Part shown: piece by piece, positions 1 to 13,419 of the stretch
Layout of the letters: each line of letters starts with the position of its first letter
Numbering within the stretch: position 1 is the stretch's first letter
Origin: Bacteroidota bacterium
GTDB lineage: Bacteria; Bacteroidota; Bacteroidia; Chitinophagales; BACL12
Assembly: GCA_029571985.1 (NCBI GenBank)
Contig: JAKQVC010000235.1
Coordinates: 1 to 32,790 of the forward strand
Reading direction: 5' to 3'
Length of the DNA: 32,790 nt
Made by a program: the position numbers and the translations under genes
The notes under the pieces: generated by a model
Seen by the model: only the letters and a program-made list of their open reading frames with translations
What the model was told of the DNA's origin: nothing
Database searches by the model: none

Positions 1-1425
1 ATACGTTACGCGATCGCCAGGCAATAAATTTTTTGCACGGAGGTCGAAGGCGTGAGTAAACTTGTCGTTTTTATTTTGTGAAGTCGACAGCGCCGTTTCA
101 TTTTCTTCACGTGTGAAGAAATTATCATCGTTATCGCGTCCTTCGATGGTATAATGAAATTTCAGATTGCGGATACCGTAGTCGTCAGAAATTTCGCCAA
201 GGAAGTATAAATATTTATCATCCGTGCTGTCGATATATTGCTCTGCAGAAATTTGCGGATGCGCATCCGGAATTACCGTAATCGTATAACTGATCGTATC
301 GCGCGCATACACCCGTTCGTTGGCGATGCCGATTTTATATAATTCTGTTTGTAGTGCGCGACGCTCAGCAGTATAACGATCGTTGCCATCGCGTTTCGCT
401 TGTGATTTTTGATCGGCAAAAAACAGTTCGATGCGGTCGGTGTTTTCTGTATTAAAAATCCAGTTTAATTGTGTTCCTTCCGGCACCAGTAAATCGCCTG
501 AATTATCCAGTTTTGTGTCTTTTAATCCGGTGTAATCCGGATAATTTATCTGCACATCAAAATTCAGCAGTGTAGGTTTCGGCACCACTTTTAAATCGTA
601 GTCGCGACTGCCAAACCCGTTTGCCACAAAATGGAAGCGCGTATCTGCAGCTACCTTATTGAACACATACGAATAGGCGTCCGGACCATCCTTTTGCATG
701 GTATAAGTGCCCGTAGGCGTTACGATAGCCACCAGTTCGGGGAGGATTTGGCCGGTGATGCGCAGTTTGAGGGTAAAATCCTCGTATTGCACCACTTCCA
801 GGGCATTATGTTCCACGTTAAACTGAAAAGGCGCCTCACGTTCGAAGTGGCGATTGTTTTTCAGTAATCGTAAGTTGCTGTCTTTCAACACGTTAGGTGC
901 GGCAAACACCACAAAAACCAGCACAGCCAGGGGAGGAAGCGCATATTTCAGGTATTTGCGGTTTTTCGCCAGGTCGATAGCCATGGTAAAAGGAATCGGC
1001 CTGATTTTCTCGATTTTCTGGTTGATACCCGCTTCGATGAGGGCGGTATGTTCGGCGCTGGTGGCCTGTTCGCGGAGTTCTAGGATATTGAGGAGTTTAT
1101 CCTGAATATCGCCAAAGTGGTCGCCGATGATGCGTGCGGCATCCTTATGCGAAATCGTTTTGCCGAGGCGATAATACTTCAGGAGGGGGGTCAGTATGAA
1201 GCGCACAACCGCATACCCCGTTCCGCCCAGAAAGCCCCAGAACAGCACCTTTCGGACGCCTGTAGAGAAATAAAATCGATATTCCAGGAAGCTGAACAGC
1301 AGGTAAACGCTCACCACGGCGGCGGCTGTAAACAGCACCCCCCTAATCAGCCGGTTCAGGTAAAACTTCCTGATAAACGCGTCCAACCGGCTTAACAACA
1401 ACTCATAATGACTCTGACTACCCAT
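1..1425 (-). CDS. DUF4175 family membrane protein (5' part, runs off the window)
   Basis: The minus strand is open from an ATG at 1425-1423 to the window edge, giving 475 codons without a stop; the 3' end lies outside. The N-terminus starts MGSQSHYELLLSRLDAFIRK. Hydrophobic segments lie near residues 25-45 and 55-75, and a third near 155-175 follows the stretch with IGDHFGDIQDKLLNILEL. After that come soluble beta-rich segments, with YPDYTGLKDTKL near residue 300. This order (short helical start, three membrane spans, then a long periplasmic region) matches the Bacteroidota DUF4175 family, whose members are usually around 1,000 residues or more and of unknown biochemical role. Family recognition is from memory. 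The gene is more G/C-rich than the DNA to its right and marks the left edge of the accessory island. Confidence 0.8.
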   Translation of the reverse strand, partial: MGSQSHYELLLSRLDAFIRKFYLNRLIRGVLFTAAAVVSVYLLFSFLEYRFYFSTGVRKVLFWGFLGGTGYAVVRFILTPLLKYYRLGKTISHKDAARIIGDHFGDIQDKLLNILELREQATSAEHTALIEAGINQKIEKIRPIPFTMAIDLAKNRKYLKYALPPLAVLVFVVFAAPNVLKDSNLRLLKNNRHFEREAPFQFNVEHNALEVVQYEDFTLKLRITGQILPELVAIVTPTGTYTMQKDGPDAYSYVFNKVAADTRFHFVANGFGSRDYDLKVVPKPTLLNFDVQINYPDYTGLKDTKLDNSGDLLVPEGTQLNWIFNTENTDRIELFFADQKSQAKRDGNDRYTAERRALQTELYKIGIANERVYARDTISYTITVIPDAHPQISAEQYIDSTDDKYLYFLGEISDDYGIRNLKFHYTIEGRDNDDNFFTREENETALSTSQNKNDKFTHAFDLRAKNLLPGDRVTY

Positions 1426-2067
1426 CTAATTAGCAATATTAACGAAGATTGTGCCAATAAGGTGTGGGGGGTAACGAAATTTAACATGGGGATAGGATAA
1501 ATGGCCCAAATGTTGTTTAAAATTACTGAAAATTATGGATTTAATAACCAATAACAAAGGAAAATCTAATATATAAAAAAGTTACAGAAAGAACCCAATC
1601 TGTGACAGGCAATTTTGAAACAATTAGGATTATATACGCAAAAATTATTGAATTTTGGTGAAATTTGACATTTGATGCACCAACCCCTAAACCATTAAAT
1701 TTAAATGAAATCAAAAAATTGATAAAAATAACCTTGATTAGAGTTTTTTGACTAAAGTTGACTCATGCCGATCAGGAATAAGAGGCTACTTATTTACTTA
1801 ATATAAATTGGAGATTGCAACTTTGAAAATATTTAAGTTTGTGTTGATATATTTTATTGATATAAACTATGAAAGAAATATTATAAAGCAATAGAGCTGG
1901 ATTTGTTATTCATTTTGATTAAATCTTGGTTCGTGGTAATTAAAGTATATATGATTATTTGCAGTATATGTACAAAAAGTCATAAGTTAAACTAAAGCTT
2001 GCCCGTATGCGGTTCTATTTATCTAAGGCTATTTAATTTCATAATTTTAGGTTTTTAATTAATAACC
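1426..2067. other. A/T-rich intergenic stretch between divergent genes
   Basis: There are 642 bases with no credible gene. The composition drops sharply to A/T-rich compared with the DUF4175 gene. Every short open frame I read is stop-riddled. Several TAnnTTT-like octamers occur, such as TAAGTTTG near 1830 and TAGGTTTT near 2048 (about 12 nt before the next start), but none is convincing alone. No tandem repeats, tRNA-like cloverleaf or CRISPR repeats were seen. It probably carries the promoters of both flanking genes and the left boundary of the island. Confidence 0.5.
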
Positions 2068-2847
2068 ATGAGAACATTAATGGAAGTTTTATCAAACGAG
2101 GATGCAACGCTACCCACGCTCCCGTTGTTACATACAACCGATGCCTTTTATTTTGAGAATATTTTAGAAACAGGCGAGCTAAAGACGGACTATTGTGATT
2201 ATTTAGATGAGAGTTGCGCCTTTACATTTTATGGCATTCCATCTTATAGAAAATCAAGCAATGCGGCAAGCGGAAACGCGGCATTATTTCCAGTTTGTTT
2301 TGTATTTAATTTTGACAGACTAAATACAATATATAAATTATTTCCTCTTGACTCGGGAGCGTTTTACCATGTCAGCGAGGTTAAATCTAGGAATTTTCAC
2401 CCCGGAGTTAGTTTGGAGCAACTTGAGTTATTGCCCAGAATCGATAGCGCAAGAAAACTGATCAAAAAGTTTTATCAAAACAATTCAAATTATATAAACA
2501 ATAGCCCTACATTGTTAGTAAAGGATGTCTCTCCGGTTAATCAAGCCATGTACGGGTATACAACCCTTATTAATGATAACACTATTGGTAAATATGACAA
2601 TAGGGTGTCAACTATTGAGATAGTATTTAATAAGGGTTTAGTAATAAATAAAGACACCTTACTTCAGGTAATTGCGCCCGAAGTGTTTCTAGAGGACGAT
2701 AGAATTATTGACTTATTATCAAACAAGTATGGGATAACCAATCCCTTGGGATATAAGTCCTATAGATCGATGCCCTCAGAATATTGGGGCTCAATCATCG
2801 AATTGTACAAAACAGTCCTTGGTAATGATCAAATTGTGTCTAAATGA
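2068..2847 (+). CDS. Unknown protein with an ADP-ribosyltransferase-like N-terminal signature
   Basis: This 259-aa soluble protein has no signal peptide or membrane span. Residues 20-39 contain an H-T-T motif (H22) followed by FENILETGELK, and residues 54-61 read FYGIPSYR. An H-(S/T) motif, then an I-L-x-x-G-x-L turn, then a conserved Y/R-containing beta strand resembles the NAD-binding core of DarT/ART-like and RES-like folds. That resemblance is my inference, not a confirmed family hit. The C-terminal half (about residues 130-259) is unrecognised. Its stop overlaps the start of the downstream TPR gene (ATGA), so the two are almost certainly translated together. Codon use is strongly A/T-biased, like its partner and unlike the flanking core genes. 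It could equally be a non-enzymatic protein of an unknown family. Confidence 0.6.
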   Translation: MRTLMEVLSNEDATLPTLPLLHTTDAFYFENILETGELKTDYCDYLDESCAFTFYGIPSYRKSSNAASGNAALFPVCFVFNFDRLNTIYKLFPLDSGAFYHVSEVKSRNFHPGVSLEQLELLPRIDSARKLIKKFYQNNSNYINNSPTLLVKDVSPVNQAMYGYTTLINDNTIGKYDNRVSTIEIVFNKGLVINKDTLLQVIAPEVFLEDDRIIDLLSNKYGITNPLGYKSYRSMPSEYWGSIIELYKTVLGNDQIVSK

Positions 2848-5105
2848 AATTGGCTGGTTTTTATTGGTCTAGATTAAATTACACATTTGCAATCCCTATA
2901 TATTGCGATGAAAATGGTTACTACACCCATAGAGTTTCCAAGTTAATGAGAATTGAAGGGTTTGATCCTATTGAAATCCATGACGTACATTCATTTAATA
3001 CTAATTCGAATTATAACCTCGGTTCACTTGCCCCTATTGTTTATTACATTGAAGAGGGGGTAATTTTTTATGGTAAACCCGATTATGTTATAAAAAATGT
3101 GTTTAAACATTTTATTCGTAACGGTGTAATTAAAAATAGCACTGTTAAAGAACTTTATGAATTATCTTCAATTATTAATCTAGACGTATCTGAGTTTAAT
3201 AGTCTATTTCTATTAATGAAGAAGGTAAGAGAGTTAAAGCTATTTGAATTTTATACCTTGCTTCCCGTAATAGAAATATTACAAAAAGGTGTAAAAGCTT
3301 ACCGTCGACTACGATCAAGAAAAAAGTCGTTTAAACATTGGAAACAAGAAGGATATATATTTAAGCAAAAAGGGTTTAAGCTGAACTTTAATAGAGACGC
3401 CCTAAATAGCAATAAGTCTTATATTGTTAATTTATTAATCTCTGGATTATTCGCAAAAGGATTTATTGAACTCTCAAAACTTGTTGAAAATCAAATAAAA
3501 ACAAGTCCGCTTAATTTGATAATAAAGACCTTGTCTGATATTTCGCAAATGGTCGCAAATGAAGGTCATTATTATACTGCAGAAATTGTATTAGAACTCA
3601 CAAAAATTATACCGATTTATGACTTTATTGTAACTAGCCAATACGCCGACTTGAAAAAATCACAAGGAAATTACCCGGAAGCCATACGGGCCTATAAATT
3701 GGTATTAGAAGACGAACCTGAAAATAAGTATGGAAGATGTGGTTTGGCTGCCGTATACCATGAGATGGGGGATTTAGAGACCGCTAGAATTGAGTATGAA
3801 AAAGCAATTAAAATGTTTCCTGATGATAATGTAATCTTGAGCGGATATGCAACGACCTTAATTAGTCAAGGAAATTTAGCTCAATCTGGATTGATTTATA
3901 GGAATTTAATTGAAACAAATCCAAATGAAGCAAGAGTGCTTAATGACTATGCAGCCTACTTGAAAAAGCTAAATAATATTGAGGATTCCCGTGTTTTTTA
4001 TACTAAGGCATTAGAACTTGATCCTAGCAATCTAATTTCAAAAATTGGTATTGCGGAGTTGGATCGGACGTTGGGAAATTTTAATGATTCAATTAAATTG
4101 TACAAAGAATGTCTAGGTGTTAAACCGCGAAACGTGGTATTTTTAAATGGTTTGGCAAATGTATTTAAAGAAATGAGCGAATATTCTAGTGCCCTTGGCG
4201 TTTATGAAGATGTATTGCAGATTGATCCTAGAAATATATTCACGCTTTGTGGTATCGCTGATGTATATTTAAAACTATCAAAAGAAAATATTGCCAGCAA
4301 GTATTATGAGCAAGTACTTGCAATAAGTCCAATGCACCATGTTGCTCTTGGCGGAATAGCGCAAATTTTATGTACAAAGGGATATTATAACGATGCAATA
4401 GAAATATATCAGCGATTGTTGAAAAAAAATGAGCACAATCTGTATGTTTTAAACAGTTTGGCTATGTGTTATTTGTATTTGAATCAAATTGGTAATGCAA
4501 AATCAATATTAGATGCAAACACCTCAAAATATCCTCAAGATCTATATATGAAGCATTTGTATCTGCATTGCAAATTGAAAAACGGCACAGCAACCCAAGC
4601 CGATTTTGATGCTAATTTAGTTTCTAATCCAAATACCTTTTTCGAGCATTTGGTTTTAAATTCTTATATAATGTATAAGATAACCCAAGGAATGTTAGAT
4701 GTGGCTCAAGATCTCATAACATACTGGATTAATCGGGTTAAATTTCCTTCAATAAGATTTGCCATGATAGTATTATTGAAGTATATAAAAATCATGAACA
4801 AAAAATATGATGAGTTGGTCAATGATTTAAAGTTAGACAATCTTAATGGACCTACAGATGGAATTAATTATGTATTAAATGCACACGCAGTGGGCAAAGC
4901 TCAAAATCTAGTTGAGTTTAGATATAACATCGCCAAACTATCAGAGTATAACCCATCAAGCGATATATTTAAATGTAAACAATTATTGGTTCAACTCTAT
5001 AGTGAAAAAAATATTATTCAGTTTAATTCTATCGTATTAGAAGGCGAACTCAAGGATTTAGAAGAAAACTGCCTGCTTCGATATTGTTTAGGACTTGGCC
5101 AATAA
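2844..5105 (+). CDS. Large TPR-repeat protein, partner of the upstream ART-like gene
   Basis: This 753-aa protein starts at the ATG inside an ATGA overlap with the upstream stop codon. Residues 1 to about 250 are a unique domain that I do not recognise: an aromatic-rich beta start, then basic helices with an R/K-rich patch near 155-170. From about residue 265 to 590 there are nine or more 34-residue TPR units with the usual G-A-Y/L-P pattern, for example GNYPEAIRAYKLVLEDEP and GYYNDAIEIYQRLLKK. Residues 590-753 are helical and less regular. There is no signal peptide, so it is probably cytoplasmic. TPR arrays bind protein partners, so it may act as a sensor, scaffold or antidote-like partner for the upstream protein (inference). 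Very A/T-rich codons suggest transfer. Confidence 0.75.
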   Translation: MKLAGFYWSRLNYTFAIPIYCDENGYYTHRVSKLMRIEGFDPIEIHDVHSFNTNSNYNLGSLAPIVYYIEEGVIFYGKPDYVIKNVFKHFIRNGVIKNSTVKELYELSSIINLDVSEFNSLFLLMKKVRELKLFEFYTLLPVIEILQKGVKAYRRLRSRKKSFKHWKQEGYIFKQKGFKLNFNRDALNSNKSYIVNLLISGLFAKGFIELSKLVENQIKTSPLNLIIKTLSDISQMVANEGHYYTAEIVLELTKIIPIYDFIVTSQYADLKKSQGNYPEAIRAYKLVLEDEPENKYGRCGLAAVYHEMGDLETARIEYEKAIKMFPDDNVILSGYATTLISQGNLAQSGLIYRNLIETNPNEARVLNDYAAYLKKLNNIEDSRVFYTKALELDPSNLISKIGIAELDRTLGNFNDSIKLYKECLGVKPRNVVFLNGLANVFKEMSEYSSALGVYEDVLQIDPRNIFTLCGIADVYLKLSKENIASKYYEQVLAISPMHHVALGGIAQILCTKGYYNDAIEIYQRLLKKNEHNLYVLNSLAMCYLYLNQIGNAKSILDANTSKYPQDLYMKHLYLHCKLKNGTATQADFDANLVSNPNTFFEHLVLNSYIMYKITQGMLDVAQDLITYWINRVKFPSIRFAMIVLLKYIKIMNKKYDELVNDLKLDNLNGPTDGINYVLNAHAVGKAQNLVEFRYNIAKLSEYNPSSDIFKCKQLLVQLYSEKNIIQFNSIVLEGELKDLEENCLLRYCLGLGQ

Positions 5106-5155
5106 CATAATAATAGTTTGAGGCAAATTGTAATACTCCCCAAATCCTAGACCAG

Positions 5156-5193
5156 AGGTTTAGTTAAAAAATGGTGTTAAATTTACTAAACCT
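5156..5193. repeat. 9-bp perfect inverted repeat in front of the IS3 remnant
   Basis: AGGTTTAGT at 5156-5164 and ACTAAACCT at 5185-5193 are perfect inverted copies separated by 20 bases, ending directly at the ATG of the transposase remnant. It may belong to the insertion sequence's left end or hide its ribosome-binding site; it also lies about 50 bases after the TPR gene and could end its transcript. Confidence 0.55.
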
Positions 5194-5446
5194 ATGACAA
5201 AAATAAAAAGACGCAAGTTTAGCGCGGATTTCAAGGCCAAGGTTGCCTTGGAAGCCATCAAGAATCAGAAGACATTGGCACAACTCAGTCAGCAGTATGA
5301 TGTAAATGCCATTACCATTGCAAATGGAAGGCAGAGGCATTAGAAAACCTGTCATCTGTTTTAAGGGAAAACAAGAAGAAGAGAAGTTGGAGAATACCAT
5401 TGAAATGGAGAAGCTCTATGTGCAGATCGGCCAGTTTAGTGGGAGT
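5194..5446 (+). pseudogene. IS3-family transposase OrfA remnant
   Basis: The first 49 codons read MTKIKRRKFSADFKAKVALE and onward through LAQLSQQYDVNAITIA, the helix-turn-helix start of IS3-family OrfA (IS3/IS150-like). A single-base shift near 5320 ends this frame. The family sequence resumes in the next frame as WKAEALENLSSVL, then after a second shift near 5370 as KQEEEKLENTIEMEKLYVQI. Homology stops around 5440, four bases or so before the stop codon of cas6. The orfB integrase and the right end of the element are missing, so it cannot transpose. Its abrupt end at cas6 suggests a deletion between this element and the CRISPR locus (inference). Confidence 0.85.
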
Positions 5447-5449
5447 AGG

Positions 5450-6226
5450 TCAATAGGAATTGATGATATCCGGTTTTTGATTTAAAGGAAAGGTCAATAG
5501 GCCATAGCCCTCAACCGAACCAAAGCCAATACCAATACCTTCCGGTAAGCGAATGTTGGTTTCAAAAGTGAGGTCAAACCTTTTTCGCAAACGGCGATTG
5601 AACATCCGCCAACCTTCACCATGTTTACTGATTATGCGACAACGAATCGTAAACGGGACATCAAGGTTTACGGCTTTACAAAACGTAATAATATTGCTGG
5701 TAAGCTTACGTTCCAGAATCTGTAAGCGCTCAATTTCATAGGGTGTGTCACGCCATTCGTTAAAAGATGCTTCTTTTTTTCCTTCTGTATTTGTGCGAAA
5801 GAGCTTAAAGGGTATCCAGGTGTTAACGCGATATTTATTTGCTTCTTCCTGGGCAACCGGCGACAAATATTTTTCTTCCGGCATCAGAATGCCAATTTTT
5901 TGACTCCTGTTATTTCTAAAGTGAAATATAAGTCCTCTGTCTTTATCAATGATCAGTTGTAAGGCCTTCGCCCCGTCGCCAATGGCGGTGATGGTGGCGT
6001 TTCCGTCCTGCACACCACTTTGCACTAATGGGTACCGGTATAGATGCTTCAGGCCATTTTCTGTAACAATCTCATTACTGATAATATTGAGGTCGATACC
6101 ATTTTTTTCCAGTAACTCACGGTGTTCGATTTCGAGACGGTATAAAGATTCCCGAACAAGCTCAATCTGCCTTGGCTGCGTTGGCAGGTCGAGCAGGTAT
6201 TTTTTGATGAGGATGTGGTTTTGCAT
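5450..6226 (-). CDS. cas6: CRISPR-associated endoribonuclease Cas6 (Cas6b-like)
   Basis: This 258-aa protein has two RAMP-like halves. The N-terminal half contains a YRYPLVQSGVQDGNATITAI-type segment followed by GDGAKAL, typical of the Cas6b N-terminal domain. The C-terminus carries the glycine-rich loop GIGIGFGSVEGYG (about residues 230-242), the RAMP signature that cradles crRNA. The role known for the family is cutting the CRISPR precursor transcript within each repeat to make crRNAs. Several histidines are present, but I cannot assign the catalytic one. It looks intact and is less A/T-rich than the TPR gene beside it. It is transcribed away from the cmr genes, from the 6227-6792 region. 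With no array in view, its substrate must come from elsewhere if it is active. Confidence 0.85.
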   Translation of the reverse strand: MQNHILIKKYLLDLPTQPRQIELVRESLYRLEIEHRELLEKNGIDLNIISNEIVTENGLKHLYRYPLVQSGVQDGNATITAIGDGAKALQLIIDKDRGLIFHFRNNRSQKIGILMPEEKYLSPVAQEEANKYRVNTWIPFKLFRTNTEGKKEASFNEWRDTPYEIERLQILERKLTSNIITFCKAVNLDVPFTIRCRIISKHGEGWRMFNRRLRKRFDLTFETNIRLPEGIGIGFGSVEGYGLLTFPLNQKPDIINSY

Positions 6227-6792
6227 ACTGGCGTATTTAGATTTATTATAATATACCTTCGAGTAATATTGCGGCTGATGAGGATGGATTATGTATATGT
6301 ATTAGAAAAGCAGATGATTCAAATTGATTATTTAATACACAAGGGTTTCTATTCCACAAAAACCATACAAGTATACAACAACCAATTTTAAATCGCACTC
6401 GGGCTTGTTTTTAAAACTGCCACACAGCTGGTAACTGAATTATTACAAGCTTTCTATACAATTGTACGTCAAATAATTGGATGAATTATGCATGTCACAA
6501 ATTAGGGGTCCTATGAAAACTATCCGATGTATTAGATTGATTGTCAACAATGTAGAATGATTATTAGCTTGTTTTACAAGTACAGACCCAATAAAAATTT
6601 TCAATTTGAAGGCGAAAATTCAAGTGCCAGACTATATATTCACACTTGAGCCCCGTTTACTTTTGATTGGAGGTTATTGGTGGTTTGAATTTCGTTTTAT
6701 ATTGGTTGATAATATTTCACCACCTTTATTTTTCTCAATGGCTGTTCTTGTAAAACACATTTAATGAATCTGTACATACCGATAATAAATTC
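6227..6792. other. Decayed region between cas6 and the cmr genes
   Basis: This 566-base stretch lies where the bulk of cas10/cmr2 would normally be found, in front of cmr3. No intact gene is present. A start-less open frame of about 67 codons runs on the plus strand from 6561 to 6764 (it includes LEPRLLLIGGYWWFEF), but I cannot assign it to a family. No repeated 25-40-mers were seen, so there is no CRISPR array. It must contain the cas6 promoter; I could not pick a clear -7 box. Confidence 0.5.
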
Positions 6793-6921
6793 ATGGATAA
6801 TGTGCGAGAATTGATAAGGAAGGCATATAGTGACTGCACAAACTCTGAAGATTCAGCCAAGGAATTTGTTAATTCGAATGTTAGATATATAGATTTTGTA
6901 AATAAAGAAACGGAGGATTAA
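6754..6921 (+). pseudogene. Possible C-terminal scrap of cas10/cmr2
   Basis: A frame open from 6754 (after a TAA at 6751) runs to a TAA at 6919-6921, two bases before the cmr3 start. From the only ATG (6793) it encodes 42 residues, MDNVRELIRKAYSD and onward to VRYIDFVNKETED. In intact III-B loci the gene directly before cmr3 is commonly cas10 (cmr2), whose end is a small helical segment. The position, the near-abutting junction and the helical, charged composition suit a leftover of that end. Sequence similarity alone is too weak to prove it. The alternative is a tiny independent gene. If the reading is right, the HD, palm/GGDD and zinc parts of Cas10 are all gone. Confidence 0.4.
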
Positions 6922-6923
6922 GC

Positions 6924-8126
6924 ATGAGTATATATTTTGTTAAAATCCAGCCAGAGCGTAATTTTTTCTTTGGCATCGAGCCGAGCGGTCGCGCTGGGGC
7001 ATATGGCAATAGCAAAACATATTTCCTGAAAGGGATGGAACTGCCGCAGCAGACCTCCGTATTTGGACTAATAAGATATGTGCTTCTACTTGAGATGGGT
7101 ATAATTCGCGAAGGCATGCCCAATATTCCCTATGACAAACGGGAGGCTGCAGCGCAACTAATAGGTAAGGCGAGCTTTAGACCTGATATTACTGAATATG
7201 GCATACTCAAAAAGCTTTACCCTGTTTTTTTTACATCGACAAGGAAGGGTGATTTTACAAATTATTTTCGCTGAAATTATGAGGTTACCTCCCAACACAT
7301 TATGGATTATGCGTCTGGGGTTAGTCGCTATACTGCCAATGCTAATTTTGATTGCAGTTATGATTTGGATAAAAACTTGCGGTTGGCGCCATTGACTAAC
7401 TATAGCGAAAAAAAGAAGTTTCTAGGCGTTGCAATTAATGAAAGAGAAGAAATTGTATTTGTTACAGATGAGTATCAAAACAGAAACACCTCCGTCTTTG
7501 AGGAGGAAAATAATTTATGGGGCAGGCATAATTATATTCTAAAAAAGAATGAACGGGTTGGAATTCGAAAGGGAGAAGAGGGACGCACTGACGATGAGGC
7601 ATACTATAAGCAAGTTTTTTATCGATTTAATAGTGACTTTTGTATGGGCACCTATCTAGAGATAGACGATGCAGCTGACATGGATGCAAAGGTGCATTAC
7701 ACCACGTTTGGCAAGGAGCGATTAATCGTTAGGGTGAGTTTTACGAAGTGTGGTCCTGGCAAAAGTGCTATGAGCCCCGATTTTAGCAATACCGTTTTTG
7801 GAGTTGATTCAAAGTCGTTAAAAGTTTTATTACTGAGCGAAACCGTTTTAAAGACGGGCTATACGAAGGCCATAGATTTGGGTTTAACGAACCGTAAGCG
7901 CTTTGGATTTATTAAAAGCACGGTAGGAAACGAAAGTTATTCAGGAAGTATATATAAGGATTCACAGCCTAGCCAACACAATATTCTGGCTGCAGGTAGT
8001 ATATTATGGGTTAAAGACATGACGGCTTGGCAATCAGTTATAAATGAAAGCTATTCAATAATAGGGATGAATAGCTTTGTTACTATAAAAGAAGAAATAG
8101 ATTTTAATTCATTTAATAACAAATAA
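6924..8126 (+). pseudogene. cmr3: cmr3 (type III-B RAMP) interrupted by one in-frame TGA
   Basis: Codons 1-116 and the segment after codon 117 lie in the same frame and read as one Cmr3 of about 400 residues if the TGA at 7272-7274 is ignored. The start has the Cmr3 pattern NFFFGIEPSGRAGAYGNS followed by LPQQTSVFGLIRYVLL, equivalent to the family's 'P-T/S-x-x-G-x-R' segment. The end has LAAGSILW, as in other Cmr3 proteins. Cmr3 normally caps the crRNA 5' handle next to Cas10. There is no further lesion in the remaining 284 codons, so the stop looks recent, or a sequencing error, or read through. An ATG at 7302 could re-initiate but would lose the N-terminal RAMP fold. It abuts cmr4 (1-base gap). 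Confidence 0.8.
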
Positions 8127-8127
8127 T

Positions 8128-9018
8128 ATGGGATATAACAGTGTGTATTTTCAAATTCGGTGCCTGACCAACTTACATGCAGGAAGCGGTAAGAATGATT
8201 ATGGGGCAATTGACAATCCCATTCAGCGGGACGCAGCAACTGCATTTCCCTGCGTATATGACAGTAGTTTAAAAGGCGCATTGCGAGAGTACTTTGAAAA
8301 GTCCGTAGATGACTTACCTGAAAGCAATAAGCAAAAATTAATAGACGAAATTTTTGGAAAGGAGTCAAAGGAGGACAATCAAAGTGAACAAGGAAGGTAT
8401 ATCTTCCTACAAGCGCAATTATTATCGATTCCAATCAGATCTAATAACAGACCGTATCTAATGGTAACTTGTCCACTAATTTTTCTTGAATTGGCAGATC
8501 GATTATCTTTTTTTGGTTCTGAGCATACAAATTTAATAGATACGCTCCGCCAGATGGCAAGTTCAGCCAGCGAGTTGTTTCAAAGATTAAAAACAGATTT
8601 GGGAGAGAACTATCAAGCTGTGTTTACTGGAGACCATTCAAACGATTGCCTGGAAGAAGAAGACATCGTTGTTTCAAAAAAGATTACAATCCCCACTGAA
8701 GATGCGTTGATTAAGCAATTGTTTGGTGGTAGCGATGATTTTGTGATTGTTTCTGATTCATTGTTTTCAATGCTAACGGATAATTTTCATTTGCCGGTAA
8801 TTGCGCGCAATAAGCTCGACAACGGGATGAGTAAGGCCTTATGGTACGAACAGTTTTTACCCAGAGAAAGCCGGCTGATGTGTCAAATGTTAATCCCGGA
8901 TTATTTGATTGAAAATAGTTCTCAATTTTTTATTGGCGGCATAGACAATAAAAGAATCCAAGTAGGGGCAAATGCTACTGTTGGTTATGGACAATGTTTA
9001 TTTAATTCAATTCTGTAA
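8128..9018 (+). CDS. cmr4: Cmr4, Cas7-type backbone subunit of the type III-B complex
   Basis: This 296-aa protein has a complete Cmr4 layout. Residues 13-35 (LTNLHAGSGKNDYGAIDNP then IQRD) hold the loop with the aspartate (D29 here) that in studied Cmr4 proteins cuts target RNA every six nucleotides. Residues 42-55 (VYDSSLKGALREYF) are the RAMP S-S-x-K-G-x-x-R motif. IARNKLDNG near 230 and the C-terminal VGANATVGYG glycine loop are also typical. Cmr4 copies line the crRNA backbone. The ORF is free of stops and keeps its catalytic residue although its neighbours cmr3, cmr5 and cmr6 are broken. It starts one base after the cmr3 stop, with cmr5 following after 9 bases. Confidence 0.92.
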   Translation: MGYNSVYFQIRCLTNLHAGSGKNDYGAIDNPIQRDAATAFPCVYDSSLKGALREYFEKSVDDLPESNKQKLIDEIFGKESKEDNQSEQGRYIFLQAQLLSIPIRSNNRPYLMVTCPLIFLELADRLSFFGSEHTNLIDTLRQMASSASELFQRLKTDLGENYQAVFTGDHSNDCLEEEDIVVSKKITIPTEDALIKQLFGGSDDFVIVSDSLFSMLTDNFHLPVIARNKLDNGMSKALWYEQFLPRESRLMCQMLIPDYLIENSSQFFIGGIDNKRIQVGANATVGYGQCLFNSIL

Positions 9019-9027
9019 ATCTAGCAT

Positions 9028-9396
9028 ATGCAAATCAGTAAAGAGTTGGCACAAAGATGTTTTGAAGCGTCGAAGCGCTTTTTGGAAGATGGTAAAATTG
9101 ATGGTGAGTATTAAGGTGATATTTCATCCTATGCACCTAGTATAGTGCAGTCCGGCCTTATCGGTGCAGTGTTGCTTTATTCAGTAAAATCAAAGGAGGC
9201 CGCCCATGTGCGAAGAAACAAAATCAATAGAGCGTTGCATTTTGTACTGCTATACCTGGATAATAAGAAAGAGATTGGAGCGATGGACTGCAAATCGGAA
9301 AGCGCGGAGTTGTTCCACTATATAGAAAAGAAATATAATTCATTGGACAGCGTAAAAGGCTATTGCACAATGTTGAATTGGCCTTATGTGGCTTGA
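9028..9396 (+). pseudogene. cmr5: cmr5 (small subunit) interrupted by one in-frame TAA
   Basis: The ATG at 9028 begins MQISKELAQRCFEASKRFLE; a TAA at 9112-9114 (codon 29) is followed in the same frame by GDISSYAPSIVQSGLIGAVL and on to a TGA at 9394-9396. Read through, it is 122 residues, a normal Cmr5 length. The A-P-S-x-V-Q-S-x-G-L-I-x-x-V-L segment is typical of this all-helical small subunit, which lines the target RNA in the complex. Everything downstream of the stop is open and family-like. As with cmr3, a single point change is the only visible lesion. Position between cmr4 and cmr6 supports the assignment. Confidence 0.8.
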
Positions 9397-9452
9397 AAAT
9401 GGCAATTCGATTTTAGCCGAGTAATGAAAGTAATCTATCTTAATTTGAATAA

Positions 9453-10738
9453 ATGATGAATGTTGGTAGATATTATACGAAGACTTATTTTTTATCCAGT
9501 GATATATCTGATGCTATCGATTATTATGCTGTAATTAGCTCCAAAGATGAACGACATTAAAAAGCTAAGAAGCTAATAAAAACCTAATAACAGGTAGAAA
9601 TCAGCGCTCATTTGAATTTCAGATAAAGAGTAATGTCAGATTAGTTGAAATGTTGGCAGAGTATGAAGTCTCAAATGGAAATAATGCTAAAATCACCTTG
9701 CTGACAACATATCCAGGTTTGTTAATTGGGAGTGGTTATCACCACGAAGTAGGGATAGAGGGAGAATTAAAGCTTGGTCTTCAGTTTGGTCACTTGACGG
9801 GGCTGCCATATATTCCCAGCCATTCAGCAAATGGAGTTATTAAATCATGGTTAAGTCAGATAGTGGATAATGACGGCGGAGGAAATGTTATAATGATTGC
9901 ATATTATTTTAAGGAGCTGTTTAATTTTTCTCAAAATGATTTATTGGGCATGGATTGGAAGTGGGTTTTGGATAGACTATTCAACGATAATAATCAGAAT
10001 ACGCCACTTAGCAAGGTAGATGTATTTTTGGACGCTTTTCCCGATAAGCAAACTGGATTATTATTTGCAGAAGATAATATTACCCCGCATAAGAGTCCGA
10101 TTAAAGAGCCCATTCCTATCTCATTCCTGGTGGTTAGGGAGGATGTTAGATTTAACTTTTATTTTCAATTAAAGGATACACAACTTACAAGCAATGGCAC
10201 GTTATCTTTAACAGCATTGGATAAAATGCGTTTGTTTGAACGCGTCCTTTGTGACGCTGGTATTGGTGCAAAAACAACTATTGGGTACGGCCGCCTGAGC
10301 TCTGATTTGAATCAATTTGATGGCTTAAAATTTGAATATGCTAAGAATGTGATTACTTATAAGGACCAGCGCCAACAGCAAGATCAAAAACAGCATAAAA
10401 AGCAATTTGAAGGAGGTGGGTTGAATAGAGATGAAATTCAAGTAAGAAATGTTATTGACGAGCGTCCAGTAATAAACATGATGGCTCGAGAAATTGAGGC
10501 AGACGGTTGGACATTAATTTCTGAAGTTAAACTTTCAACAGTAGTTCGCGCAAAAGTTCTTCAGTATAATGCAGGTAATTGCAAACTTCAATTATTTGTA
10601 AAAGGCCAAACCGAATTAGTGAACGTACAAGCTCGCCTTGACGAAGGCCATATAATTAATGTAATGGTTTTAGAAGTTTCTGGTAAGAAGGGCACTGATA
10701 ACTACAAGATTACCAAGGTAAAACCTTTGCGCAGTTAA
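9453..10738 (+). pseudogene. cmr6: cmr6 with a broken 5' end
   Basis: The expected Cmr6 start is seen from 9453 as MMNVGRYYTKTYFLSSDISD, ending at a TAA (9558-9560), with another TAA in that frame at 9585. The family sequence continues two frames over, open from 9569 to the stop at 10738, with ATG at 9650 as the only obvious restart. The main part (362 residues) has TYPGLLIGSGYHHE and LQFGHLTGLPYIPSHSANGV, Cmr6 landmarks. The RAMP motif, usually IPGSSxKG, reads IPSHSANG, so the conserved Gly-Ser and Lys are changed. Residues about 155-225 keep a glycine loop (GIGAKTTIGYGRL), and a 130-residue C-terminal extension includes an OB-like segment. Cmr6 normally caps the complex at the crRNA 3' side. 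No promoter is seen upstream. Confidence 0.75.
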
Positions 10739-11104
10739 TATTATTATTTAGCAATGAGCAATTACCGGAGCTGATTTATTTATGCCTTTGTAATGAACTT
10801 TCCTAAATATAAAGAGCGGTTAATAACGATTTGGCTTAATCATAGAATAATCCGGATACTCAAGGTTGGTTTTCGCAGATTCGCACTAATTCAGGAAGAG
10901 GCGTTAAAGAGATTTATATATTTTGATTCAAAAGTATCGTCACATTGGGGTTTGTAGCAGTTGCTGACGAGCGGCAAGTGTGATTTGATTATCTAAATGA
11001 ATAATAATGATGGGCTCTAATTTATAATAAATAGAACCCATCTTTATATATCACAACGAGAACAGTTTAAAATTTCCTGGGACTTAAAATATTTATTTAG
11101 TTTA
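10739..11104. other. Gene-poor stretch after cmr6, with one doubtful small ORF
   Basis: The only plus-strand ORF with an ATG is at 10793-10957 (54 residues, MNFPKYKERLITIWLNHRII and on, basic and helical). It has no recognised family and a weak start, so I list it only here. It may be a fragment of a lost type III accessory gene or chance. A hairpin sits at 11009-11042. No CRISPR repeats are present, although the flank of a cmr operon is a usual place for an array. Confidence 0.4.
11009..11042. terminator. Hairpin between convergent genes, possible bidirectional terminator
   Basis: GATGGGCTCT (11009-11018) pairs with AGAACCCATC (11033-11042) with one mismatch and a 14-base A/T loop. TTTATATAT follows on the plus strand and an ATTATTATT tract on the minus strand. 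It lies between the cmr operon and the minus-strand gene at 11245, so it could end both. The U-tracts are poor. Confidence 0.45.
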
Positions 11105-11244
11105 TCATGCGCTTAAGTCGTTTTCGGCTGGAGATATGGGTGTGGGATTCTGAATTTCGTTACTTGGCAATAATTTATGAATAGGAATAAAAGGAATGAC
11201 ACCTTTTGAAATTGATTCAAATATTCCGTCCAGCTGCAAATACA

Positions 11245-12300
11245 CTATTCCGATAACAATAGCCAAATAAGTACAGGCGTAGCGAGTTCGATTACGGATG
11301 GAGCAATAGTATTGAATCTGTTTTTTCTTGCTTCGGCCTTGGATTTATATATATTTTTTTCACTTATTGTTACCTGAACATTGTAATTACCGGTTTCTGA
11401 TGTGATTGCCGTATAAGAGTTTTTCAAACCATTTATACAATCTTTGTCGTCGGTTTCACATTTGACCTTTGTGCTGGTTGAACTTATAGGAGGCAACAGT
11501 ATCCATCCGCTATTTTCATTTTTAGTTTGAGGTGAGTTGCTGGTCGTCATGTCATTAAGATTCAGCGAAACTTCCTGCATTGTTTCGGATTTACTTTCAC
11601 CCTTAACATTTGTATAGTAGGTGAATTTAATGGTAATGTGACTATCTATATATTTAAACCCACGTTTTTGTTTGGCGGCACTATAGTTATAAGTGAGTGG
11701 AAGGCTAGTTGAATACCTAAATGCGAGCCCATCAGGGCTTATTTCCGGCGTAAGCGTTAAATCTACTGCTGTTTTTTCTGTTTTTTCATCTTTTTTTAAC
11801 CTTACAGTGCGTTTAATATGAATAATAGGAGGGTTGGGTTTTAAATCATTATATAAACCGGTGCCAGAACAAGAGCCTGAAAAGGACGCTTCATACAAGC
11901 CGGTATCACTTTCAATTGCTGATTTTGCAACACTGTTGATTAAATTGAGCCCAGTCTCTATCCCGTCATTATAATTGTATTCATTCTCGCTAGTTTCCTC
12001 ACTAGTTTCCTCGTTAGCTGTTTCCACATTTGCATTTCCAGTTGACACGGTATTTGATTCCACGGTTTTTTCGGAGGTTGTTTCTAGCGACGACGGGGTA
12101 AACTTCATGTGTTTTACGGGAAGCCGGTAGTATACATTATGTTGATCATCAAGCATGACAAGCGCAGAACCAGGTTCTACAGTTACAGAAGTTTTCGAGG
12201 ATACGATGTTTTCTTTATGACCATCTGTATATACTTTGGTTTGTGCAATGCAATAGCCATGCAAAAAAATTAAAATTCCTAAAAGTTGTAAGTTTTTCAT
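11245..12300 (-). CDS. Unrecognised exported protein with a C-terminal hydrophobic segment
   Basis: I chose the ATG at 12300-12298, which begins a clean signal peptide (MKNLQLLGILIFLHGYCIAQ, cut after the AQ); a more upstream ATG at 12333 would bury it. The product is 351 residues. A Ser/Thr/Glu-rich low-complexity linker (about residues 73-110) separates a small N-terminal beta domain from a larger beta-rich domain with SGSCSGTG and repeated lysine-rich strands. The C-terminus ends in a hydrophobic stretch (PSVIELATPVLIWLLL). Right after the stop another minus-strand frame continues the membrane-like segment for about 50 codons to 11105, suggesting a 3' frameshift (see findings). No family recognised. 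The location is probably periplasm or membrane. Confidence 0.7.
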   Translation of the reverse strand: MKNLQLLGILIFLHGYCIAQTKVYTDGHKENIVSSKTSVTVEPGSALVMLDDQHNVYYRLPVKHMKFTPSSLETTSEKTVESNTVSTGNANVETANEETSEETSENEYNYNDGIETGLNLINSVAKSAIESDTGLYEASFSGSCSGTGLYNDLKPNPPIIHIKRTVRLKKDEKTEKTAVDLTLTPEISPDGLAFRYSTSLPLTYNYSAAKQKRGFKYIDSHITIKFTYYTNVKGESKSETMQEVSLNLNDMTTSNSPQTKNENSGWILLPPISSTSTKVKCETDDKDCINGLKNSYTAITSETGNYNVQVTISEKNIYKSKAEARKNRFNTIAPSVIELATPVLIWLLLSE

Positions 12301-12450
12301 AGTTGTTCTGTTTTTGAATGTCCAAAATTGCACGGATGGTTGGAGGTAAGCATGGGTGTTTTGGATATTTCTTGGGGGTGTTTTCCCCGGGTCAAAATAC
12401 CCCTTATTGTATAAAAATTTGAAATTAATTTAGCCTTCAAATTAGATATT

Positions 12451-13419
12451 ATGAAGAACCCCAAACACCTAATTCCGATAGCAGCCATATTGCTTATTGG
12501 ATTAATTATTATTTTGTATTATTTTAAACCAGATCAAACAGGCGAACAAATAACTGTCGAACAGAAGGAAATTCTAACTTTTGTAGATTCAATTTTGATT
12601 AATGACACTTCATTTCATGATACACGTGAAAGTAAATTGAATAACCTAAAGAGGGCATTAAGCAAGCCGATTGATGCCGCAAGGGCAATTCAAATGAAGA
12701 AAGAGGTCAGAGATAAATTAAAATACGGGGAAGATTTTGAGTTTATTAATCCGCAGATTTCGGTAAATGATTTGCTAACATACGTTACATATTTTATAGG
12801 CGACGACTATTTAAATGCTGGTTTATTGGTATACCCGGCATTAGAAGGGAATAAATTAATACATATAATATGTATAACTAGGGAATTTTCAAAAGATAGC
12901 GACATTGGATATTATAAATTTTCGAATATTGATTATCGTTATCAGAACACAATGTTGGCAAAAGATGCAATTTCACGAGAACAAGCTTTAGCATTAATTA
13001 AAGCCTATTATGATAAGGTTACTATTTGCAACACCCCACAAAGAGATTTTAAATACTATAAAACCTCACATTTTTATAAATTGGATGATATTGAGGCGTA
13101 CTTGGATGATAATGGATACTATGCTGCTGCCGAGTTGGAAAGCAAACAATACTTTCTAGAATTGAATCATGGATATATTACTGATTCTATGATGGAGGAT
13201 TTTTTCAAAATTGGCGGGAGGTTTGTTGTTAAAAAAGCGGAGGATTTAATAGGATATAGTTGTTTTTTAGAATTATATGATAAAATCGGTTCGGTAACCA
13301 GGAGCGCCCCTATCATGGGCTCTCCCAAAAGAATGTTTGGCATTGAGGAAATAGCAAAACCGTGCCCGCCAAGGTGTGACGATTTTGGAGGCATCACAAG
13401 AAAAGAATTTTATCCGTAA
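12451..13419 (+). CDS. Unrecognised membrane-anchored protein
   Basis: This 322-aa protein has one N-terminal membrane segment (about residues 7-26, IPIAAILLIGLIIILYYF) after a short basic start (MKNPKHL), so it is probably anchored with the remainder outside the cytoplasm. The soluble part is mixed alpha/beta with many Tyr and Asp residues. A late stretch has Cys-Pro-Pro-Arg-Cys (near residue 308). I recognise no domain. It is A/T-rich like the rest of the island and diverges from the exported protein at 12300 across about 150 bases, which must contain both promoters. The next gene begins 30 bases later on the same strand, so the two may be co-transcribed. Confidence 0.7.
   Translation: MKNPKHLIPIAAILLIGLIIILYYFKPDQTGEQITVEQKEILTFVDSILINDTSFHDTRESKLNNLKRALSKPIDAARAIQMKKEVRDKLKYGEDFEFINPQISVNDLLTYVTYFIGDDYLNAGLLVYPALEGNKLIHIICITREFSKDSDIGYYKFSNIDYRYQNTMLAKDAISREQALALIKAYYDKVTICNTPQRDFKYYKTSHFYKLDDIEAYLDDNGYYAAAELESKQYFLELNHGYITDSMMEDFFKIGGRFVVKKAEDLIGYSCFLELYDKIGSVTRSAPIMGSPKRMFGIEEIAKPCPPRCDDFGGITRKEFYP

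Follow-up and report, generated by a model that had tools for sequence, protein, structure and literature searches.

A two-gene module pairing a DarT-like predicted ADP-ribosyltransferase with a partner of interchangeable C-termini: candidate decoy sensors of phage in bacteria

DarTG consists of the ADP-ribosyltransferase (ART) DarT and of DarG, which joins a macrodomain to a C-terminal neutralising domain. In CapRel and other fused toxin/sensor anti-phage systems, a phage protein engages the sensor that holds a toxic enzyme, and in plants, nucleotide-binding leucine-rich repeat (NLR) receptors with integrated decoys are constant signalling receptors bearing interchangeable, often disabled copies of pathogen targets. 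PrrC/EcoprrI, Ronin, PARIS and Panoptes sense the counter-defence of phages, whose target they guard or imitate (PMC12409349, PMC12657218). We analysed a gene pair at positions 2068 to 5105 of a 32,790-nucleotide stretch of contig JAKQVC010000235.1 (assembly GCA_029571985.1) from a Bacteroidota bacterium of the BACL12 lineage; this whole stretch is called the window below. The pair had been put forward, in an original prediction made from the sequence, as an undescribed module of an ART-like protein and a large tetratricopeptide repeat (TPR) protein.

The pair probably belongs to a family of two-gene toxin/decoy-sensor modules with interchangeable baits that are triggered by phage. Gene 1 would encode a DarT-like ADP-ribosyltransferase toxin and gene 2 its controlling partner, in which a constant N-terminal adaptor, presumed to hold or restrain the gene 1 product, carries an interchangeable bait. 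Many relatives have as bait a copy, disabled by its sequence in the enzymes tested, of a host protein that may be subject to inhibition, degradation or co-option by phages (DnaA, FtsZ, ribosomal protein S9 (uS9), RelA/SpoT, cold-shock protein (Csp) and GcrA), or a copy of a defence protein (HsdR, the DarG C-terminus, RES). Action of a phage protein on the bait would change or remove the gene 2 product, free the ART and shut down the infected cell. We give slightly better than an even chance to the proposal that these modules are a bacterial counterpart of integrated-decoy receptors, in which one chassis of ART toxin plus adaptor repeatedly captures and disables copies of phage-attacked host proteins, sometimes by inserting beside the target gene. 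The features of the window module are as follows.

2068 to 2847, + strand: gene 1, 259 amino acids (aa), a DarT-like ART-fold protein by model, constant partner and predicted toxin (AlphaFold2, structure matches in PDB, 78-row alignment)
2131 to 2133, + strand: codon of H22 in gene 1, invariant histidine on the first core strand (78/78), presumed to act as the ART strand-1 residue
2227 to 2250, + strand: FYGIPSYR of gene 1 (residues 54-61), at the family motif F-x-G-[RK]-P-[AS]-[YF]-[RK] seen in the alignment
2596 to 2619, + strand: D177-x-R179-x4-E184 of gene 1, invariant (78/78), with E184 as the predicted catalytic glutamate, opposite the DarT glutamate in a low-confidence profile alignment
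2844 to 5105, + strand: gene 2, 753 aa, shared N-terminal domain plus variable C-terminus (here TPR)
2844 to 3128, + strand: shared N-terminal domain of gene 2, residues 1 to ~95, beta-rich, predicted adaptor (hidden Markov model (HMM), structure model)
3129 to 3632, + strand: helical linker of gene 2, low-confidence model with block means of the predicted local distance difference test (pLDDT) of 34-75
3633 to 4607, + strand: TPR array of gene 2, the variable (sensor or bait) region of the window module (Pfam TPR E-values down to 3e-28; NCBIfam span 274-588)

The two open reading frames (ORFs) overlap at an ATGA common to both (2844-2847), and this overlap, H22-T-T, the ILETGEL turn, FYGIPSYR and the TPR array are all present as originally described. 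The prediction had called the first ~250 residues of gene 2 unknown and the rest a TPR array. The array is there, beginning at about residue 264, but residues 1 to ~95 proved to be a family-wide domain, and the picture of a large TPR partner missed the main point, which is that the TPR region is one of many interchangeable C-termini.

The ART assignment, which had been proposed together with structure prediction as its check, was supported by an AlphaFold2 model of gene 1 (pLDDT 94.1; predicted template modelling score 0.91). The first eight Foldseek matches of this model in PDB were DarT structures (best E-value 4e-3, probability 0.98), and the top seven rows of VIA-align were also DarT, with Z of 7.7-9.3 and root-mean-square deviation (rmsd) of ~4 over 160-173 residues (best match: Z 9.3, rmsd 4.1, 173 residues). 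These were followed by Tpt1/KptA, SopF, CteC, OspC3, cholera toxin A1 and PARP-1, nearly all of them ART-fold enzymes. Among 78 aligned gene 1 sequences, H22, C43, F54, D95, G97, D177, R179 and E184 are invariant. The residue types expected of ART catalysis, a histidine or arginine on strand 1 and a late glutamate, are thus present in all 78 as H22 and E184, their equivalence to the ART positions being presumed; E184 lies opposite the glutamate of the DarT motif AEFLV in a weak, low-confidence profile alignment. Residue 57 of the window copy is I, where 77 of the 78 sequences have R or K (window 2218-2238 encodes residues 51-57), and residue 52 is F, where 77 have Y; the ART of the window copy may be altered.

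Sequence searches with the gene 1 product found nothing in Pfam, NCBIfam, PADLOC or PDB, its match in PHROGs was at chance level (E-value 0.17), and none of the PADLOC 2.0.0 system models matched it (0 families). Membership of the DarT family was tried and rejected. Neither the window copy nor any of 16 members gave a Pfam match to DarT (PF14487), and hhalign against 11 DarT-type sequences returned a probability of 0.1% and an E-value of 0.47. Since sequence profiles give no link to DarT, we place gene 1 outside that family despite a modelled fold that resembles it, and regard the product as an ADP-ribosyltransferase-like predicted toxin.

Searching plasmids by tblastn with gene 1 gave 12 records, mostly from Alphaproteobacteria (22-27% identity, E-values down to 8e-13). 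Beside nearly every plasmid copy lies a second, overlapping gene whose product is annotated at 303 to 902 aa. Profiles built from these relatives found 5 loci in viral contigs and, in a collection of species genomes, 84 confirmed gene 1 relatives, 80 of which were kept; this last count is a lower bound, two short patterns having been scanned. The species-genome relatives are mostly Alpha- and Betaproteobacteria, with others, by their titles, in Bacteroidota, Verrucomicrobia, Planctomycetota, Acidobacteria, Victivallales and Clostridia. Within its own phylum the module appears sporadic, since neither 100 relatives nor a sample of 395 genomes of the phylum (1/395) contained a copy other than that of the window. 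The window protein P0001, used as a single-sequence query, had no match in viral and genome contigs, and a search of phage records gave no match.

The pairing is regular. A gene 2 with the shared N-terminal domain follows gene 1 in 89 of 96 loci outside the window, the set used for all pairing counts, so the co-occurrence that had been suggested as a check does hold. Among 87 pairs with intact frames, gene 2 starts within 20 bases of the gene 1 stop codon in 84 and overlaps it in 71, usually by 1-17 bases. The two genes therefore travel together as adjacent, coupled genes, as in type II toxin-antitoxin systems. The loci that depart from this layout include a broken copy (L010; loci are numbered with the prefix L) and two at contig ends (L042 and L080).

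The shared domain spans about 95-125 aa across the family. An HMM built without the window copy scored window gene 2 at 35.4 bits over residues 9-92, compared with 6.1 bits for the best of 999 shuffles, and leave-one-out HMMs placed every gene 2 in the family with an E-value of 5e-4 or better. Among + strand ORFs of the loci, the domain occurs only in gene 2 products. In the window protein it is modelled as beta-rich, with pLDDT block means of 89-97 over residues 1-90. The N-terminal model had no convincing match in PDB (Foldseek best E-value 0.85, VIA Z under 5) in a search dominated by its helical part, so that the domain is not established as a new fold. The shared-domain profile had only weak matches in PDB, the best of which (E-value 0.002) was to a designed repeat and lay outside the beta domain. 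No macrodomain, the mark of a DarTG partner, was found in window gene 2 or in the scanned gene 2 products.

Beyond residue 110, the gene 2 regions fall into 41 BLAST clusters. Those C-termini that could be recognised by Pfam, NCBIfam, PADLOC or the profile of gene 1 itself are listed here.

TPR: window and L019; weakly L009; L094 through similarity to L009
DnaA: full DnaA in L026; DnaA-type ATPase in L046 and L056
FtsZ: L073
RelA/SpoT HD plus TGS: L052
uS9: L071 and L072
CspA-like (Csp): L062
GcrA: L087
HsdR: L038
SNF2 helicase: L066
Lysine/ornithine monooxygenase: L037
Sulfatase-modifying-factor domain: L014, a viral contig
DarG C-terminal domain: L091
RES: L034
Second gene-1-like ART: L054, 8764-10032

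In L054 an ART is thus the variable domain of gene 2, as though it served as bait for attacks on the module. The gene 1 proteins of L052 and L044 are 63% identical and those of L046 and L067 52% identical, and in neither pair do the C-termini have detectable similarity; swapping of the C-terminus is thus recent in places. Large conserved C-terminal groups of the L002-, L033-, L004-, L047- and L003-type have 4-10 members each. Their representatives had no Pfam match, and profile searches of PDB with four of the five gave nothing convincing; these groups are possibly dedicated sensors.

Each genome was searched with its own bait for a native gene elsewhere. Based on this test, six bait types in the relatives are extra copies of a host protein, as integrated decoys are: DnaA (76-90% identity to the native protein), FtsZ (77%), uS9 (80% in one genome, with a native copy also found in a second), Csp (67%), GcrA (49-74%) and RelA/SpoT (35%). 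All three baits that were compared with the native enzyme have lost, at the level of sequence, residues of its activity. In the last 105 codons the DnaA bait has three residue changes relative to native dnaA, two of which turn the DnaA-box motif GRDHTTV into GRAPTTV, removing a D-H pair that we take to contact DnaA boxes, as established for E. coli DnaA; its Walker A is changed from GLGKT to GLSKT. The FtsZ bait carries G29E and G77L in its nucleotide-binding loops and keeps the T7 loop and C-terminal peptide, and the RelA/SpoT bait is without the FLHP histidine, the ED pair and the GYRSIH synthetase motif and keeps TGS. Nonsynonymous divergence (dN) from the native gene is well below synonymous divergence (dS) for DnaA (0.047 and 0.22) and for FtsZ (0.145 and 1.43, this dS being near saturation), so both baits seem to be held near the native protein while functional sites are lost. 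The window's own module has none of these decoy features. The best other matches of its TPR bait in its own genome are 18-28% identical and none is a close paralogue, and we therefore see it as a member of the family without the decoy feature itself.

Two loci suggest how baits are acquired. In L110 (Magnetospirillum, 1493-5536) the module lies between native dnaA and dnaN on the chromosome, in the order native dnaA, gene 1, gene 2 with a DnaA bait, dnaN, recF and gyrB (the last three read by eye), and the DNA-contact motif of the DnaA copy is altered. In the planctomycete locus L091 (6378-9880) the order is darT, a DarG consisting of a 167-aa macrodomain alone, gene 1 and gene 2 with a DarG C-terminus, so that the domain absent from DarG is fused instead to gene 2 of the adjacent module. 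These orders suggest insertion of the module next to a source gene, followed by capture.

Homologues often adjoin anti-phage genes, in keeping with the defence or conflict setting suggested in the original prediction. Matches among 135 nearest-neighbour ORFs, scanned without a background control, include MADS, Lamassu LmuB, type IIG restriction, Hachiman HamA, SoFic, HEC-06, Mokosh MkoB and AbiTii. Four plasmid loci and two features of the window itself are as follows.

L007: adjoins an AbiEii-type gene
L008: adjoins a DUF262-type gene (read by eye)
L010: adjoins a CBASS operon
L011: adjoins a Z1/PD-DExK/AIPR/ATP-binding cluster
Window, ~5194-5340: insertion sequence (IS) remnant immediately following the module, a piece of an IS3-type OrfA whose frame is broken (read by eye)
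Window, 5450-10738: type III-B CRISPR remnant with Cas6b (- strand), Cmr3 split in two ORFs (6924-7274 and 7302-8126), Cmr4 and Cmr6

In L010, on a Paraburkholderia symbiosis plasmid, the gene 1 beside the CBASS operon is broken (5899-6348) and gene 2 was not found. The IS remnant and the CRISPR locus that had been reported beside the window pair were both recovered, and its A/T-richness is equally real, with a G+C content of 30-35% in the module, 45-48% just upstream and 40-44% across most of the right half of the window. The ORF list holds no ORF of Cas10/Cmr2 size among the type III-B genes and the repeats of window 1200-12500 showed no CRISPR array, so this effector may be degenerate or incomplete.

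Several points weigh against reading the family as phage-triggered decoys. The majority of C-termini (68 of 88) were unrecognised, and several of the large groups are conserved families for which no host counterpart was found; decoys may therefore explain the family only in part. The motifs of the HsdR bait are intact, as judged by eye, and this bait is only 34-40% identical to its best matches, HsdRs, elsewhere in its genome. The bait of L091 is the only DarG C-terminus seen in that locus and so would be a guarded protein rather than a decoy. The activity of window gene 1 is uncertain because I57 and F52 stand at positions otherwise occupied by R/K and Y. The lack of a background in the neighbour scan also counts here, and the case is computational throughout. 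It is very improbable, nevertheless, that gene 1 has the ART fold but no transferase activity and that the module is non-toxic: no activity is known for it and the window copy departs at the two residues just named, but H22 and E184 are invariant and the DarT-like fold is confidently predicted.

The other explanations differ in what gene 2 does. An ordinary toxin-antitoxin system is unlikely; here gene 1 would be neutralised by gene 2, whose C-terminus would respond to the state of the cell (partner availability, stress) and not to phage. In its favour, the toxin-first order and overlap are those of DarTG, and RelA/SpoT and GcrA baits could report physiology. However, the six tested bait types are spare copies, three of them disabled, and defence neighbours and carriage on plasmids and viral contigs favour conflict. 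We think it improbable that the bait is a localiser which brings the ART to a cellular machine (ribosome, divisome or origin), there to modify neighbours under some condition. Several baits do belong to large complexes, and the C-terminal tails of the uS9 and FtsZ baits are kept; yet assembly of the DnaA and FtsZ baits should be weakened by their lost DNA-contact residues and changed nucleotide loops, and RES, DarG C-terminus and ART baits lie outside large machines. Distinctly improbable, in our judgement, is a generic protein-sensing partner in which only the unrecognised and TPR C-termini function as sensors, the host-like baits having arisen by sporadic fusion to genes next to the module. 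Most C-termini are indeed not host-like, and the DnaA and DarG baits adjoin their source genes, but the FtsZ bait and both uS9 baits are on contigs other than those of the native genes, and a uS9 bait occurs in two genomes. Furthermore, the FtsZ bait and the uS9 bait of L071 differ from the native genes at many synonymous sites and so appear to have been kept for a long time.

If the decoy-sensor reading is correct, bacteria make immune sensors from vital proteins of their own, disabled copies of which are fused to a domain that controls a toxin. The long-standing question of which host proteins phages attack could then be answered from genomes, the baits together listing the targets, with DnaA, FtsZ, uS9, GcrA, RelA/SpoT and HsdR as suspected targets. 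The analysis also adds an ART-fold family that has no model in Pfam, NCBIfam, PHROGs or PADLOC. Decoy fusion is an established principle in plants; we did not find it described for bacteria in the literature searched, which left bioRxiv preprints and most subscription papers outside its scope, and no description of such a system was found there. The pair had been called undescribed, and this agrees with our search: its components are of known kinds, and it is their arrangement that we did not find.

Among known systems, DarTG resembles the family in the predicted fold of gene 1, in the toxin gene coming first and in the DarG C-terminal domain carried by gene 2 of L091. It differs in that gene 1 has no DarT family match or profile similarity and in that the gene 2 products examined are without a macrodomain and have instead a constant adaptor with swappable C-termini. 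PrrC/EcoprrI, Ronin, PARIS and Panoptes each watch one kind of target, and a family-wide adaptor with swappable copies of host proteins is not described for any of them. Systems of the CapRel type are one protein with one kind of sensor, whereas the present family has a separate toxin and mutually unrelated sensors, several of which are host paralogues. Unlike plant NLR receptors, the family is a two-gene bacterial module with an ART effector, and no NTPase/leucine-rich repeat core was found in it; the likeness, which is one of analogy only, lies in a constant part that bears interchangeable, often disabled copies of targets.
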